Shown piece after piece: positions 1-62,498 of a stretch of DNA of 64,000 bases. A program made the translations under genes and the position numbers. This DNA comes from a virus. The stretch lies in the IMG/VR virus record IMGVR_UViG_3300033146_003395, positions 1-64,000 of that record, one strand, 5' to 3'. The notes beneath the pieces are model-generated. The model did no database searches. It was not told the DNA's origin and saw nothing but the letters and a program-made list of their open reading frames with translations. The first letter of the stretch is position 1; the number at the start of each line of letters is the position of its first letter.

Positions 1-192
1 TTCATTTATGTAAACAATTTTATATATGTAATCATTAGGGTTATCTTTTTGGTCTTGAATAAATAATTTATTTGTTGAAGAACTAAAATATTTATGCCCT
101 ATGTCTTCTGATGGAATACAGTTACAACTTCTTGAACCCGTATAATGATAATTTGTTTGTGTATTTGTTATACGATATGTATAGTGATACAT
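1..192 (-). CDS. Homing endonuclease, N-terminal part (runs off the window)
   Basis: Reading leftwards from an ATG at 192 the frame stays open to the window edge (64 codons). The N-terminus has the layout Y-T-Y-R-I-T-N ... Y-T-G-S-R-S, followed by C-I-P-S-E-D-I-G-H-K-Y-F-S-S-S. This is a GIY-YIG-like start typical of phage homing endonucleases. A late promoter (296-303) and a structured pseudoknot leader (215-291) precede it. The catalytic remainder lies outside the window, so the family call is likely but not certain. Confidence 0.7.
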   Translation of the reverse strand, partial: MYHYTYRITNTQTNYHYTGSRSCNCIPSEDIGHKYFSSSTNKLFIQDQKDNPNDYIYKIVYINE

Positions 193-214
193 TTATTTTC
201 CTATAAATTTAATT

Positions 215-291
215 ATAAGAGGACTTCCAACGGTCAGATTATAAATGTAGATAGACCGTTGGAGAGTATCTACATTTATAATATCTCTTAT
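215..291 (-). promoter_or_regulatory. Structured pseudoknot 5' leader RNA, copy 1
   Basis: Outer stem ATAAGAG (215-221) pairs with CTCTTAT (285-291). Inside, TCCAACGGTC (226-235) pairs with 254-263, and a 15-bp helix 238-252 pairs with 268-282. The two inner helices interleave, which makes an H-type pseudoknot. It lies between a minus-strand late promoter and the homing endonuclease at 192. Three further copies (27731, 59593, 62410) keep the pairing with different bases. Confidence 0.85.
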
Positions 292-295
292 GTTT

Positions 296-303
296 TATTT
301 ATA
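296..303 (-). promoter_or_regulatory. T4-type late promoter
   Basis: Minus-strand TATAAATA, placed so that transcription would begin at or just before the outer stem of the pseudoknot leader and run into the homing endonuclease at 192. Confidence 0.75.
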
Positions 304-26050: not shown

Positions 26051-26924
26051 AAATCAACCACAAGTAGTTAATCAAAAACAACGTTCTCGTAAAGTTGATA
26101 GTGAAGAAAAGCTAGTTGATTACATAAGAACTATGTTAGGCGAACCAATGATACAAGTAGATGTTTCAGATAACCAAATTCTATTAAATATTGATGAGAC
26201 AATCAGAAAGTTCAGTGACTTCGCTTTCGGTGGGGAAGAAACAATAGCATTTGTATATGAAGGGCAAGAAGATGTACAAGATTATAGATTAGACTCAAGA
26301 GTCCAAGCTATATTATCAGTATCATGGGCTAATAGTTTAGGTACTATTAATTATGGAAATGGTGCTGGCGGTGTAAACTTAGGTCCAGGTTGGGGAACAA
26401 TCGGAATCGGATATGTGCCACATGTTGATTCAATGGGTAATGTTTCGTCTTTAGAAGGTGGAATGGCTTCAGGTTCTTGTTCAACAGAAGTTTCTGGTGC
26501 TGCTGGTGGTGTTGGTAGAGGCTCAAGAATGGATAGTATGAGTAATGCTTACGCTTCTTTGGCTCAAAGAGATACAATGCAAGCATTATTTGGTAGAGGT
26601 GTTAATTTTGAATTCAATAGTAATACAAAAATACTTCGTGTATTTGAACCAATTGCTGGACCATTTATGATAGAAGCATCTGTGGAATATCAACCAAACC
26701 CAGAATATGATGAGATATATACCCATGATTTTATTAAAAGATATTCTGTAGCATTAACAAGAAGATTATGGTCAACCATTACTGGTAAGTATGATTCTGC
26801 TCTTGTTGGAGGAGCAACTATAAATTATGATAAGATGCAATCGGAAGCCGAAGCAGAACTTGATAAATTAGATGATGAATTATTAACTAAATGGGCACCA
26901 GCGTTAGGAATTTTCAGTGGTTGA
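26043..26924 (+). CDS. 13: Neck protein gp13-like
   Basis: 293 aa (T4 gp13: 309). N-terminal Y-I-R-T-M-L-G-E-P-M-I-Q-V-D-V and I-D-E-T-I-R-K-F. The C-terminal part Y-T-H-D-F-I-K-R-Y-S-V-A-L-T-R-R-L-W, then G-K-Y ... G-G-A-T-I-N-Y and an E-A-E-A-E-L-D-K-L helix, is characteristic of gp13-type head-tail connectors. A Gly/Ser-rich loop (about residues 105-170) is an insert. It closes the head after packaging. Its end overlaps the convergent endonuclease by 21 bases. Confidence 0.8.
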   Translation: MDRNQPQVVNQKQRSRKVDSEEKLVDYIRTMLGEPMIQVDVSDNQILLNIDETIRKFSDFAFGGEETIAFVYEGQEDVQDYRLDSRVQAILSVSWANSLGTINYGNGAGGVNLGPGWGTIGIGYVPHVDSMGNVSSLEGGMASGSCSTEVSGAAGGVGRGSRMDSMSNAYASLAQRDTMQALFGRGVNFEFNSNTKILRVFEPIAGPFMIEASVEYQPNPEYDEIYTHDFIKRYSVALTRRLWSTITGKYDSALVGGATINYDKMQSEAEAELDKLDDELLTKWAPALGIFSG

Positions 26925-27710
26925 TTTTGTAAATAATTCTTCTAAAGAAATTGATGAATTTGCTTTTTTATTATAATTTTCTTCCCAGGGTATCATTTCC
27001 AAATTATGAATATTACCAATATATATTGGTAATATTCCATTATTATATCCCTGCAATATACTAAATTTATGATCTAGATGATATTTTCCGTTTACACCAG
27101 CCATACCTCTTTTATCTATATTATTTAAGCTTGATATATTCATAGAATTTGTTATTCTATATACTTCTCGCTTATATAATTTATATAACGATAAATTTTC
27201 TAAAGTAACCCAATGATTTAATTTTTCTCTTGTCTCTCTGGTCTTTATCATTGCTTTATTTCTAACTTCTGGTATTTTACTAATATTATTTACGCCATAC
27301 TTTATTAAACAAGTATTTTTATATTTTTCGATATTATTATAATTTTCATCCCCATACCTGTTTAATTTTGTCATTTTAATTTTGTCTACATTACAATAAT
27401 TTTCATCACCATACCTGCTTAATTTTGTCATTTTAATCTGTTCGTTTGATTTTTTTATTTTATCTTTATCATTTTCCCTACATCTAGCACAACAAAATAT
27501 ATTATATCCGTTTTTGAATGATTTGAATTTGACAATATTATAATTACATTTCTTACATTTAGGAGGTGATACTAAATTATTATTGAAAGCAAAATAATAT
27601 TCTTGTTTAGAATTACACCAAGAATACTTAATAGGTACGGTTATTCTTTTGGACCTATTACTATTTATTTTTCCAGAGGGGCCTATTAACCATTTTATTA
27701 GTTTTTTCAT
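26904..27710 (-). CDS. HNH homing endonuclease with repeated R-Y-G-(D/V)-x-N motifs
   Basis: 268 aa. Cysteine pairs C-K-K-C and C-C-A-R-C are followed by three repeats of K-x-x-R-Y-G-D-E-N-Y / K-Y-G-V-N-N, a DNA-binding module of phage endonucleases. The C-terminal nuclease has Y-H-L-D-H-K-F-S-I ... N-L-E-M-I-P-W-E-E-N-Y-N-K-K (H-D-H and H/N residues of an HNH site). It is preceded on its strand by pseudoknot leader copy 2 and a late promoter. Confidence 0.85.
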   Translation of the reverse strand: MKKLIKWLIGPSGKINSNRSKRITVPIKYSWCNSKQEYYFAFNNNLVSPPKCKKCNYNIVKFKSFKNGYNIFCCARCRENDKDKIKKSNEQIKMTKLSRYGDENYCNVDKIKMTKLNRYGDENYNNIEKYKNTCLIKYGVNNISKIPEVRNKAMIKTRETREKLNHWVTLENLSLYKLYKREVYRITNSMNISSLNNIDKRGMAGVNGKYHLDHKFSILQGYNNGILPIYIGNIHNLEMIPWEENYNKKANSSISLEELFTKSTTENS

Positions 27711-27730
27711 TTTTATAATCCTTTTAGATT

Positions 27731-27807
27731 ATAAGAGGACTTCGACGGTCAAATTATAAATGTAGAAGGACCGTCGAAAGAGCTTCTACATTTATAACAT
27801 CTCTTAT
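27731..27807 (-). promoter_or_regulatory. Structured pseudoknot 5' leader RNA, copy 2
   Basis: Outer ATAAGAG/CTCTTAT (27731-27737, 27801-27807). Helix TTCGACGGTC (27741-27750) pairs with 27769-27778; 15-16-bp helix 27753-27768 pairs with 27783-27798. One terminal pair is A-C on plus but G-U on minus, which favours the minus RNA. Leads into the HNH gene at 27710. Confidence 0.85.
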
Positions 27808-27814
27808 AGTATTT

Positions 27815-27826
27815 TATTTATAAATA
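27815..27826. promoter_or_regulatory. Divergent, overlapping pair of late promoters
   Basis: TATTTATAAATA contains TATAAATA on both strands. Minus drives the pseudoknot leader and HNH gene, plus drives the gp67-paralogue at 27851. Confidence 0.75.
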
Positions 27827-58754: not shown

Positions 58755-59570
58755 TTATGATTTTCTTAATCTTCCTTTAGAAAATCCATCATATAGGTAA
58801 AATTCTGTAGGGTTGATAAGTTTAGATATAATTTTGTTATTTATCCAAATTCTATCCTTTACATTTGAAGAAAGTTTTTCTCTAGTTTCTTGTGAAATTT
58901 TATATATTACACCTTGCTGCCACCCATTATTTAGATAATAATCTAATTCATATATTTTAACCTTCTTTTGTTTTTTATCTATTTTATTAAATATAAAAAC
59001 TCTTCCTTTCTGCTCATTAGATATAGCCAATTTTCTTTCTTGTGTAAGTTCCTCTCTACCAATAGTATAATTTACTAAATCTATATCATTTATATTATCT
59101 CTAATATATTCACCTGTTATATTATTTCTCGCCCAAACTGTATTATAAACAGCCGATTTATCTTTAAGTTGTGAACTAGAATTCATAATATTACTTTTTA
59201 TATTATGTAATTTACCATACATAGGATTATTTTTACCTGAAACATCTCTTCCAAAAAAGCCATTCTTTTGCGCATAACTCATATTGATATAGTTATTATT
59301 TTTGACAACTTGATGTAATTTCTGAACTTTAAGTTCATGAATTAAAGCTATTTTTCTTCTATAAAATTTCTTTAATATACGAGTCTTAAATAAATGTGGG
59401 TTATTCTTTCTCTCGTGAATCCATATAGACTTATATCTTTTTGATGTAACTGTTCCATTATATCCATTTAATATTTTTTCTATTGATGTAGATCCTATAT
59501 ACCATTCAGGAAGTTTATCACCTGTATAATGAGTTAAATATGTGCAGTATTGTTTATTTGATGTAGACAT
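58755..59570 (-). CDS. Homing endonuclease (GIY-YIG-like) with NUMOD and G-W-x-x-G units
   Basis: 271 aa. C-T-Y-L-T-H-Y ... L-P-E-W-Y-I-G-S-T and N-G-Y-N-G match the 25397 paralogue, followed by G-F-F-G-R-D-V-S-G-K-N-N-P-M-Y-G-K (NUMOD3). The C-terminus has N-N-G-W-Q-Q-G and D-G-F-S-K-G DNA-binding units. Pseudoknot leader copy 3 and a late promoter precede it. Inserted between two sugar genes. Confidence 0.85.
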   Translation of the reverse strand: MSTSNKQYCTYLTHYTGDKLPEWYIGSTSIEKILNGYNGTVTSKRYKSIWIHERKNNPHLFKTRILKKFYRRKIALIHELKVQKLHQVVKNNNYINMSYAQKNGFFGRDVSGKNNPMYGKLHNIKSNIMNSSSQLKDKSAVYNTVWARNNITGEYIRDNINDIDLVNYTIGREELTQERKLAISNEQKGRVFIFNKIDKKQKKVKIYELDYYLNNGWQQGVIYKISQETREKLSSNVKDRIWINNKIISKLINPTEFYLYDGFSKGRLRKS

Positions 59571-59592
59571 TGAAGTCTCCTATAATTAAATT

Positions 59593-59672
59593 ATAAGAGT
59601 GAATTACTAGGTTCAAATTAAATGTATATAGAGGAACCTAGTAGAGCTCTATACACATTTAATATCTCTTAT
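59593..59672 (-). promoter_or_regulatory. Structured pseudoknot 5' leader RNA, copy 3
   Basis: Outer ATAAGAG (59593-59599) with CTCTTAT (59666-59672). Helix TACTAGGTTC (59605-59614) pairs perfectly with GAACCTAGTA (59634-59643) although the bases differ from the other copies. Helix 59617-59633 pairs with 59647-59663; the one A-C pair on plus is G-U on minus. Confidence 0.85.
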
Positions 59673-60508
59673 ACTTTATTTATACTTTGTGCCCTTTTAA
59701 AATATTCTATTTTTTGATTTATCTTATCATAATTTTTATCATATAAAATATGTTCATGCCAAAAATATACATTTTCTAATTCATCATTAGTTAGTGTAGA
59801 TATATGTGCATAACCTTCGCCAATTTGATACTTCTCAATATATTCCATCTCAATTAAATTATTGGCATAGATATAATCCATTGCAAATTCTTCTATATCT
59901 TGTTGTGGCCTATCATGACAATATTCTGCCCATATAGGCCCAGGATTTTCAGTGAGTCTCTCAAGTTCATTATGAAATAGTGTATAGAAACCAGAATCTT
60001 TCTTTGAAATGGTGAAACCAGTATCGAATGTTTTCCAACCTTCAGGTAAAGGTCTCTGATCCTTAACTGAAACAGTATCATAAACACCACAAATAGGTTT
60101 ATTATAATTAACAATTGGGCTTGGTAAAGGTTTTATCAAACTCATATCACAATCTATATGAATCATAGTTTTAAAATTTAGATTTTCTTCACACCATTTA
60201 CCAACTAATGGAACTGACCAATAGCCACAAAAGAAATTCTCTGTTTCCTTCATATATTCTTCCATATATATTACATCCATCTCTTTAAGTTTCTGGGCAT
60301 CTTCAGTTTTAAGTGTATTGTTAGTAGGACAAATAGCATAGATTGGAATATCTTTATATATTCCTCCATTTTCTCGCCAGGCTTTAACAGATAAAATAAT
60401 TTCATCAGCATATAATCTTTGGTTACTATATACTCCTTGTTGATTATTTAAATTGTCTTCATTATTTTCAACAACATACATTAATATTGTTTCTTCTATA
60501 TTATTCAT
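59669..60508 (-). CDS. Glycosyltransferase-like protein
   Basis: 279 aa. GT-A-like fold with I-H-I-D-C-D-M-S (DxD, about residue 118) and F-D-T-G-F-T-I-S-K-K. It may transfer a sugar from the pathway encoded by its neighbours. The start overlaps the aminotransferase gene by 8 bases, and its 3' end contains the late promoter of the next endonuclease. Confidence 0.7.
   Translation of the reverse strand: MNNIEETILMYVVENNEDNLNNQQGVYSNQRLYADEIILSVKAWRENGGIYKDIPIYAICPTNNTLKTEDAQKLKEMDVIYMEEYMKETENFFCGYWSVPLVGKWCEENLNFKTMIHIDCDMSLIKPLPSPIVNYNKPICGVYDTVSVKDQRPLPEGWKTFDTGFTISKKDSGFYTLFHNELERLTENPGPIWAEYCHDRPQQDIEEFAMDYIYANNLIEMEYIEKYQIGEGYAHISTLTNDELENVYFWHEHILYDKNYDKINQKIEYFKRAQSINKV
59677..59684 (-). 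promoter_or_regulatory. T4-type late promoter
   Basis: Minus-strand TATAAATA inside the 3' end of the glycosyltransferase gene; drives pseudoknot leader copy 3 and the endonuclease. Confidence 0.75.
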
Positions 60509-61122: not shown

Positions 61123-62388
61123 TTACTTTTCCTTTATTCTTTGAATATCTAGACTCGAACAATGTAGTGACCCAGCAAATATATGCGAATGTCTTAATTG
61201 CACTGGAATAACTTCAAATCCATTTTCTTCTAAAACTTCAATTGTTCCTAAAGCATCTTCCTGAACTATTACAGTTTTTTTATCAATGCTTAATATATTA
61301 ACTGACATTCCTTCATCACTAGCTAGTCTTAAATTTTTATTAGTTAAATATTTAATTTCTCTTTCTGGTGTATTCTTTGGATATAAGTAAATATATCCAT
61401 TATTAGGATGGAACTTACTTGGTAATTTCTTCCATACTTCTGGATAATTAGGATTAACCAAAAAAGTATTCTCATTTAAACTGACCAATACACCATCAAT
61501 GTGAGAATCACATAATTTTACTATATGAAATTCTTTATTAGGAAAGAAACTTTTTAACCATAAAAATCCAAGATATTGATTATAATTACTTATGTTAACT
61601 ATAATATCATCATTAAGCCTTAAAAAATTAGCCCCGTCAATTGCAGCTTCATAACTACTAGGAATATTATTAAAATCTCTATTCTTTTCCCAATCTTCAA
61701 TATCAACACTACTCTCGGTTAATATCGTTAAGGGGGCTTTTATCCATTGGGTTTTAAAATTATTAGTAACCTCTTTAAATATATTATACATAGCTAAATT
61801 TTCAAAAGCTCTATTTCTGACAATTACCGGGGTTTCTATTAATTTATCATCAATGACAATTGTTATATCTCTTACATTATTTGCTGGTGATAATTCAGAT
61901 TTAAAAGTGGTTGTTTTAAAAGGTATAACTTGTTTTAGAATATCAGGTCTATAAACAGTTATTCCCAATTCTTGTAATATAGTAGCTAAGTTATTTAAAT
62001 CTTCAATGCGTTCTTTTAATATTATATCATTAATTATATACTCATCACCTAAATCATTATATTCATATACAGATTGACCAAGATTTGACTTATAAAAATT
62101 TTTAAATGTAAAATCTATTACACGTTTAGATAATTCTAGTTCATTGCCAATTATAACTGCTTTTAATGTATCATAACTATTAGAACTATTAACTTCTATT
62201 TTTTTCTTTTTACAATTATCAAAATGCCATCTTTTAATTGCTCTAGGGTCTCCTTCTAAAAAACAATGTGGGCATTTAACTTTTTCTGTAAATCCTCGAG
62301 GTTTACCAATTTTACTATCTGATATTTTTTTTCTAGTTTCTTTGGTTAAGGTCTTTCCTTTATTGCCATTTGAAATCTTTTGTTTCAT
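61123..62388 (-). CDS. Amidinotransferase fused to a homing-endonuclease-derived N-terminus
   Basis: 421 aa. Residues 1-63 are the tail of a homing endonuclease: NUMOD3-like K-I-S-N-G-N-K-G-K-T-L-T and a finger C-P-H-C ... R-W-H-F-D-N-C almost as in the 25397 protein. From about residue 70 it is an amidinotransferase: N-N-V-R-D-I-T-I, the Asp region G-A-N-F-L-R-L, C-D-S-H-I-D-G-V and the catalytic Cys in A-G-S-L-H-C-S-S. Transfers an amidino group, perhaps to an aminosugar. Keeps the endonuclease-type pseudoknot leader. Confidence 0.85.
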   Translation of the reverse strand: MKQKISNGNKGKTLTKETRKKISDSKIGKPRGFTEKVKCPHCFLEGDPRAIKRWHFDNCKKKKIEVNSSNSYDTLKAVIIGNELELSKRVIDFTFKNFYKSNLGQSVYEYNDLGDEYIINDIILKERIEDLNNLATILQELGITVYRPDILKQVIPFKTTTFKSELSPANNVRDITIVIDDKLIETPVIVRNRAFENLAMYNIFKEVTNNFKTQWIKAPLTILTESSVDIEDWEKNRDFNNIPSSYEAAIDGANFLRLNDDIIVNISNYNQYLGFLWLKSFFPNKEFHIVKLCDSHIDGVLVSLNENTFLVNPNYPEVWKKLPSKFHPNNGYIYLYPKNTPEREIKYLTNKNLRLASDEGMSVNILSIDKKTVIVQEDALGTIEVLEENGFEVIPVQLRHSHIFAGSLHCSSLDIQRIKEK

Positions 62389-62409
62389 TATAATTCCTAA
62401 TTTTGAATT

Positions 62410-62486
62410 ATAAGAGGACTTTCCACGGTCAGATTAAAAGTGTAGATGGACCGTGGAAGAGCATCTACACTTTTAATATCTCTTAT
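62410..62486 (-). promoter_or_regulatory. Structured pseudoknot 5' leader RNA, copy 4
   Basis: Outer ATAAGAG (62410-62416) with CTCTTAT (62480-62486). TTCCACGGTC (62421-62430) pairs with 62449-62458. Perfect 16-bp helix 62433-62448 with 62462-62477. Leads into the endonuclease-amidinotransferase fusion. Confidence 0.85.
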
Positions 62487-62490
62487 AACT

Positions 62491-62498
62491 TATTTATA
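62491..62498 (-). promoter_or_regulatory. T4-type late promoter
   Basis: Minus-strand TATAAATA directly before pseudoknot leader copy 4; would drive the fusion gene, aminotransferase and glycosyltransferase. Confidence 0.75.

Follow-up and report, generated by a model that had tools for sequence, protein, structure and literature searches.

What does an element of about 80 nt do when it occurs four times in one viral DNA, each time in front of a gene that resembles a homing endonuclease gene? A preliminary description of the 64,000-nt stretch analysed here (the window) had reported copies at 215–291, 27731–27807, 59593–59672 and 62410–62486 that share a frame, and all four were present as described. 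The frame ATAAGAG-N-CTCTTAT occurred exactly four times in the window against a chance expectation of 0.03, and four occurrences were reached in 0 of 100 shuffled sequences. We read the element as a bistable translational switch that forms the 5' leader on late mRNAs for free-standing homing endonucleases, a reading to which we give a probability of about 0.5 on the sequence evidence below. The leader would probably turn the downstream endonuclease genes on and off.

Leader copies, late promoters and downstream genes

Every window copy showed the same order on the minus strand: TATAAATA, 4–7 nt, O, B, CUC, A, B', A', a spacer, O', a ribosome-binding site (RBS) and ATG. In the RNA, O is AUAAGAG and O' is CUCUUAU, B has 18–19 nt, A has 10–11 nt and the spacer 2–5 nt, with no gap between A and B' or between B' and A'. 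The ATG lies 20–22 nt past the element end, behind the RBS. The features are listed below, with leader scores from the covariance model R1.

296–303, minus strand: late promoter TATAAATA of copy 1
215–291, minus strand: leader copy 1 (85.0 bits); O 291–285, B 284–267, L1 (CUC) 266–264, A 263–254, B' 253–236, A' 235–226, spacer with C' 225–222, O' 221–215
199–220, minus strand: predicted hairpin of O' and the Shine-Dalgarno (SD) region of copy 1, rival to O:O'
1–192, minus strand: copy 1 gene, GIY-YIG-like homing endonuclease, 5' part, cut at the contig end (phrog_314, E 3.5e-05)
27815–27822, minus strand: late promoter TATAAATA of copy 2
27731–27807, minus strand: leader copy 2 (82.0 bits); O 27807–27801, B 27800–27783, L1 27782–27780, A 27779–27769, B' 27768–27751, A' 27750–27740, spacer 27739–27738, O' 27737–27731
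27713–27734, minus strand: predicted SD hairpin of copy 2
26904–27710, minus strand: copy 2 gene, 268 aa, probable homing endonuclease (DUF7487, phrog_5104)
59677–59684, minus strand: late promoter TATAAATA of copy 3
59593–59672, minus strand: leader copy 3 (72.5 bits); O 59672–59666, B 59665–59647, L1 59646–59644, A 59643–59634, B' 59633–59615, A' 59614–59605, spacer with C' 59604–59600, O' 59599–59593
59577–59599, minus strand: predicted SD hairpin of copy 3, CUCUUAUAAU paired with AUUAUAGGAG
58755–59570, minus strand: copy 3 gene, 271-aa HNH/NUMOD3 homing endonuclease (phrog_10820 HNH endonuclease, E 7e-36; NUMOD3)
62491–62498, minus strand: late promoter TATAAATA of copy 4
62410–62486, minus strand: leader copy 4 (87.4 bits); O 62486–62480, B 62479–62462, L1 62461–62459, A 62458–62449, B' 62448–62431, A' 62430–62421, spacer with C' 62420–62417, O' 62416–62410
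62385–62415, minus strand: predicted hairpin over the SD region and start codon of copy 4
61123–62388, minus strand: copy 4 gene, 421 aa, homing endonuclease-like (phrog_25854, function unknown, E 5.6e-67; weaker matches to the homing endonucleases phrog_655 and phrog_314, E about 1e-7)

The complete record (81.7 kb) holds two more copies beyond the window, both on the minus strand, which brings the total to six. The copy at 64357–64436 had its 3' half deleted, and in that at 72373–72470 the RBS region was tandemly duplicated and followed by an endonuclease frame with an early stop; these are cassettes in decay.

Copies were sought by pattern scans of IMG/VR and GTDB contigs, followed by the covariance model R1. 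A tally over the search tables gave about 54 copies in 34 contigs, with two to four copies per contig in several of them, so the copies in other phages on which the preliminary description had staked the element do exist. A scan of all fetched loci that did not require the letters fixed in the search patterns returned 38 matches in real sequence and 0 in shuffled sequence. Reversed sequence was dropped as a control because inverted repeats survive reversal, and shuffles and swapped partners were used instead. The search patterns prescribed O and, in some of the copies, CUCU, whose conservation is therefore partly imposed; the scan without this requirement added only O variants and one divergent element (L024:612), besides one chance match in a coding region. 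Pattern matches without the helices (e.g. L022, L023, L028, L042 and L051–L053) were discarded, and a match in Clostridium puniceum (L085) proved on inspection to be due to chance.

In all 43 promoter-bearing copies, O began no more than about 2 nt from the expected +1 of the TATAAATA late promoter, which bears out the earlier view of the element as a 5' leader behind a late promoter. From its position, the element appears to be a leader beginning at that +1, i.e. a foldable RNA segment of about 80 nt at the start of the mRNA.

Downstream proteins were compared with the PHROGs singly, and 30 of 37 matched homing, HNH, GIY-YIG or other endonuclease families. The remaining 7 shared motifs or families by eye, such as LYIxTHNxTGxxYFGKT or DUF7487/phrog_5104. 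The earlier claim that the leaders precede homing endonuclease genes was thus largely borne out by family matches; for the copy 2 gene the sole matches were DUF7487 and phrog_5104, both common to homing-endonuclease relatives. The endonuclease groups behind the leader are unrelated (phrog_314, 655, 12434, 10820, 3339 and 681), and the leader is missing at relatives of two element-linked enzymes in other phages. The leader thus behaves like a cassette, joined to endonuclease genes that are unrelated to one another.

Some endonuclease relatives in other phage contigs (L129, L144, L147, L156 and L157) carried a short leader of another kind behind a late-type promoter. Its stem GTGGTT/AACCAC encloses an inner GATG/CATC (GGAG/CTCC in L147, GGAA/TTCC in L156) and continues with CTCTAACGC and then an SD such as GGAGCATCAGC (L144, L157). 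This leader had no Rfam match and looks like a second, covarying class of endonuclease leader. Another contig (L011, 1266–1610 and 1911–2004 jointly) contained a small c-type-cytochrome-like gene as the neighbour of an endonuclease gene with the leader, together with a tmRNA-like stretch that scored below threshold (21 bits).

The element was absent from the isolated T4-like phages CP220, CP21 and NCTC12673 of Campylobacter and Va1 and SRILMA of Vibrio, and none was found near the related endonuclease genes of phages RB16 and NBG2. A search for plain DNA similarity between the window and known phages found none, and the nearest relatives of the window's major capsid protein were those of Vibrio and Campylobacter T4-like phages (40–46% identity). 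The carriers are uncultured T4-like viruses of bacteria.

Covarying helices that exclude each other

Both interleaved complementarities held in all four window copies with differing letters. Across 14 copies with the same layout, the share of paired cells was 96.9% compared with 71.4% after shuffling, and double changes occurred at 27 of 35 pairs (124 double-changed cells). The covariation score was 0.705, whereas slid structures reached at most 0.098. Over 42 copies, pairing with the own partner was 95% for B and 99% for the first 8 pairs of A, whereas partners swapped among copies gave about 50%. Apart from pairing within the helices, only O/O', the apical CUC and one G-C pair of A were conserved. 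The CUC (window positions 264–266, for example) was kept in 43 of 45 copies, a count partly imposed by the search pattern, and could pair with the GAG of O or of the SD.

Read as mRNA, the 42 copies contained G-U and A-C cells in a ratio of 38:3; the helix parser favours G-U at helix ends, and for interior cells alone the ratio was 12:2. Because G-U far exceeds A-C on the minus strand, the functional strand is the mRNA, as the preliminary description had concluded from two G-U pairs; these pairs are real and lie at B position 3 of copy 2 and B position 12 of copy 3. The same bias speaks against an account without any RNA function, in which the inverted repeats would be kept by quasi-palindrome template switching during replication or would serve as DNA targets. 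In one contig (L081/L087) the apical loop was inverted, as if flipped between the arms of B, so that A is a direct repeat of A' and not its complement. Template switching or inversion would fit this locus, but neither explains the constant placement between the late +1 and the RBS, and repair of the A or B palindrome cannot produce complementarity to the SD. We regard this account as very improbable. The earlier suggestion of a target or recombination site likewise gained no support, since only O and the loop CUC show sequence conservation.

The order B-A-B'-A' is that of an H-type pseudoknot, but the loop length needed to span the stems is not there. In a complete H-type pseudoknot the second linker has to run along the whole stem. 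The B'-A' linker was 0 nt in 41 of 45 copies and B comprised 16–22 positions, so B:B' and A:A' cannot both be complete in one molecule. Thus, the interleaved covarying helices of the pseudoknot proposed earlier stand, and a single fold with both complete is sterically impossible; given these lengths, complete B:B' and complete A:A' are to be read as alternative states. With the lower half of B opened, about 10 + 10 bp could form a pseudoknot of the ordinary type. Rough nearest-neighbour energies were about −22 kcal/mol for this partial pseudoknot, only indicative since one fixed penalty term was used, compared with about −16 kcal/mol when the B hairpin forms by itself. That the lower half of B is conserved then implies a use for it in another state.

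Two kinds of variant were seen. The divergent element at L024:612–700 lacks O/O', has a B of 22 bp, an A of 10 bp and a 15-nt linker, with which a complete pseudoknot is sterically feasible, and precedes a 435-aa gene of no recognised family that is polymerase-like by eye. In a long form (L068, L082, L086 and L138), an asymmetric bulge of about 5 nt in the 3' strand interrupts B, whose upper half is rich in G-U.

Shine-Dalgarno sequestration and a proposed bistable switch

Folding predicted, in each of the 42 copies, a pairing of O' and its flank with the SD region that in some cases took in the start codon. The best O':SD helix scored 8.6, compared with 4.7 when the downstream sequence was shuffled, and nearest-neighbour energies averaged about −7 kcal/mol at 37°C for the O':SD hairpin and about −4 kcal/mol for O:O'. 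The probability that the SD is unpaired was 0.24 for 41 element genes and 0.67 for 76 other TATAAATA-led genes from the same loci (p about 2e-14). In two variant contigs (L048 and L165), three bases had changed together, namely the second of O, its partner in O' and the base near the SD that pairs with the latter (ACAAGAG, CTCTTGT, and ATACAA in L048 or ATACGA in L165). O and O' are otherwise almost invariant, so that the support for O:O' and O':SD comes mostly from complementarity and from these two contigs and not from broad covariation. Furthermore, the first bases of A' paired with the spacer before O' in a small C helix that competes with the short helix A:A' (e.g. GC/GC, GTC/GAC, TGTAGA/TCTACA and GAAGT/ACTTC), with a mean of 3.45 bp for C:C' against 2.47 bp for swapped partners (maximum 2.86). 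Helices B and A of the preliminary description are retained, whereas its two-helix picture had overlooked the pairing of CUCUUAU with the SD and the C helix. Among the roles it offered, translational control is directly supported by the SD sequestration, and protection of the 5' end is possible as a side effect.

In the order O-B-CUC-A-B'-A'-C'-O'-SD-AUG, most segments have two possible partners: O and the SD region compete for O', C' and A compete for the first part of A', and B' can pair with all of B or, once A:A' has formed, with its upper half only. In conformation 1, full B:B', C:C' and O:O' would make a three-way junction with the RNA 5' end at its base and the ribosome site open. In conformation 2, A:A' and the upper half of B:B' would form a true but partial pseudoknot, and O' would lie on the SD and close the site. 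Transcription yields B and B' ahead of A', and O' ahead of the SD, so that conformation 1 would form first. It would then give way to the more stable conformation 2, and each new mRNA would yield a brief burst of endonuclease. We infer that conformation 1 is the ON state, that switching runs from open to closed, and that its trigger is folding time and not a factor. Since O':SD is more stable than O:O', the ON state would be transient or helped. We tentatively propose that the leader may be a portable, ligand-free RNA timer in which the open junction comes first and strand exchange between the two mutually exclusive long helices then yields the site-closing pseudoknot. In T4-like phages, many homing endonuclease genes that are unrelated to one another would have adopted this timer.

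The main rivals of this timed switch are a switch driven by a factor and a static stabiliser of the 5' end. A static stabiliser or insulator would use the long 5'-terminal hairpin to shield the endonuclease mRNA from 5'-end-dependent nucleases and to isolate it from its chance neighbourhood, with A:A' merely adding rigidity. The stable B helix and the paired 5' end implied by the position of O in all 43 promoter-bearing copies are consistent with this function, but it leaves unaccounted for both an SD that is sequestered in every copy and an A:A' helix that requires B:B' to be partly undone, and we consider it unlikely as the whole explanation. A triggered switch would have the same two conformations, and the same alternative pairings argue for it, but the toggle between them would be temperature, a second RNA or a protein of the phage or host; the AU-rich SD hairpin would then act like a thermometer in the temperature form. 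Its presence in 43 of 45 copies, a count partly imposed by the search pattern, would allow the CUC to serve as a protein site. However, all positions other than O/O', CUC and a single G-C pair in A vary, so that the aligned copies lack the conserved binding core of a ligand riboswitch, and there is no known candidate partner; a trigger of this kind seems rather improbable to us.

Pairing in trans deserves separate mention. The packaging RNA of phi29 (pRNA) oligomerises through a three-way junction with two complementary loops, and the A loop of one leader might similarly pair hand in hand with A' on a second molecule of the same mRNA, so that translation would respond to mRNA abundance. The complete long helix cannot carry its loop to A' in cis, and the A loop and A', which are complementary, vary among copies. 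Against this, B (16–22 bp) is too variable in length for a side-by-side dimer with 0-nt crossovers, and A helices of 12–13 bp with a 3-nt loop strand would be strained if B were complete; trans dimers are thus a doubtful explanation.

Comparison with known leaders

Rfam 15 gave no match at gathering score and none to the element at E up to 1, in keeping with the earlier remark that it is not a known RNA family, and a literature search found no description of it. For these two reasons we file the element as a new RNA family and as a variant on the hairpins that sequester the RBS of T4 homing endonuclease genes. It adds a structured family of about 54 strongly covarying copies to those in Rfam, one regulatory cassette common to selfish endonuclease genes of differing ancestry, and a clean case of two helices obliged to exist at different times.

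In architecture only, the leader resembles the phi29 packaging RNA, with a three-way junction closed by the 5' strand and two hairpins with complementary loops, but it is an mRNA leader with an RBS, no packaging role and very unequal arms. It shares the helix order B-A-B'-A' with H-type pseudoknots in mRNA leaders and differs in its second linker of 0 nt against a stem of 16–22 bp, which makes the complete form impossible. The inhibitory leaders of T4 genes e, soc and 49 (PMC3014915) likewise combine a late promoter with an RNA helix over the RBS; they use promoter-position logic without an anti-sequestor and do not belong to homing endonucleases. The seg43(25) gene of Aeromonas phage 25 has a stable leader hairpin that does not sequester the RBS (PMC2988022); like our element, it places a stable hairpin before the RBS of a free-standing phage endonuclease, but it is a single hairpin for which no competing pairings are described.

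The closest systems are the RBS-sequestering hairpins of I-TevI, I-TevII, I-TevIII, segB and Aeh1 mobE in T4-type phages (review PMC2988022). These hairpins form solely on early or middle read-through RNA (PMC2988022; PMC3014915); late RNA is open because the late promoter sits inside the 5' arm. The element has in common with them the kind of gene (30 of 37), the T4-type late promoter and the SD within an RNA stem (SD/AUG in a predicted stem in 42 of 42 copies). In contrast, its late promoter lies upstream of everything, with the arms of the SD hairpin about 70–110 nt downstream and the promoter outside the 5' arm, so that late RNA has both arms, and no additional RBS-blocking stem was found for longer upstream transcripts. 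T4 logic would have an upstream strand mask O in read-through RNA, which was rejected for lack of signal: pairing of the 60 nt upstream with O scored 4.99 (shuffled 4.91), and with O' 5.71 (shuffled 5.27), a slight excess only. The element also has an anti-sequestering strand at +1 and two interleaved helices, which the T4-type hairpins lack. Because the late promoter precedes the whole element, the promoter-position logic of T4 does not apply to it, and the common theme is restraint of translation. The element thus broadens the known rule that T4-type phages restrain the translation of their homing endonucleases.
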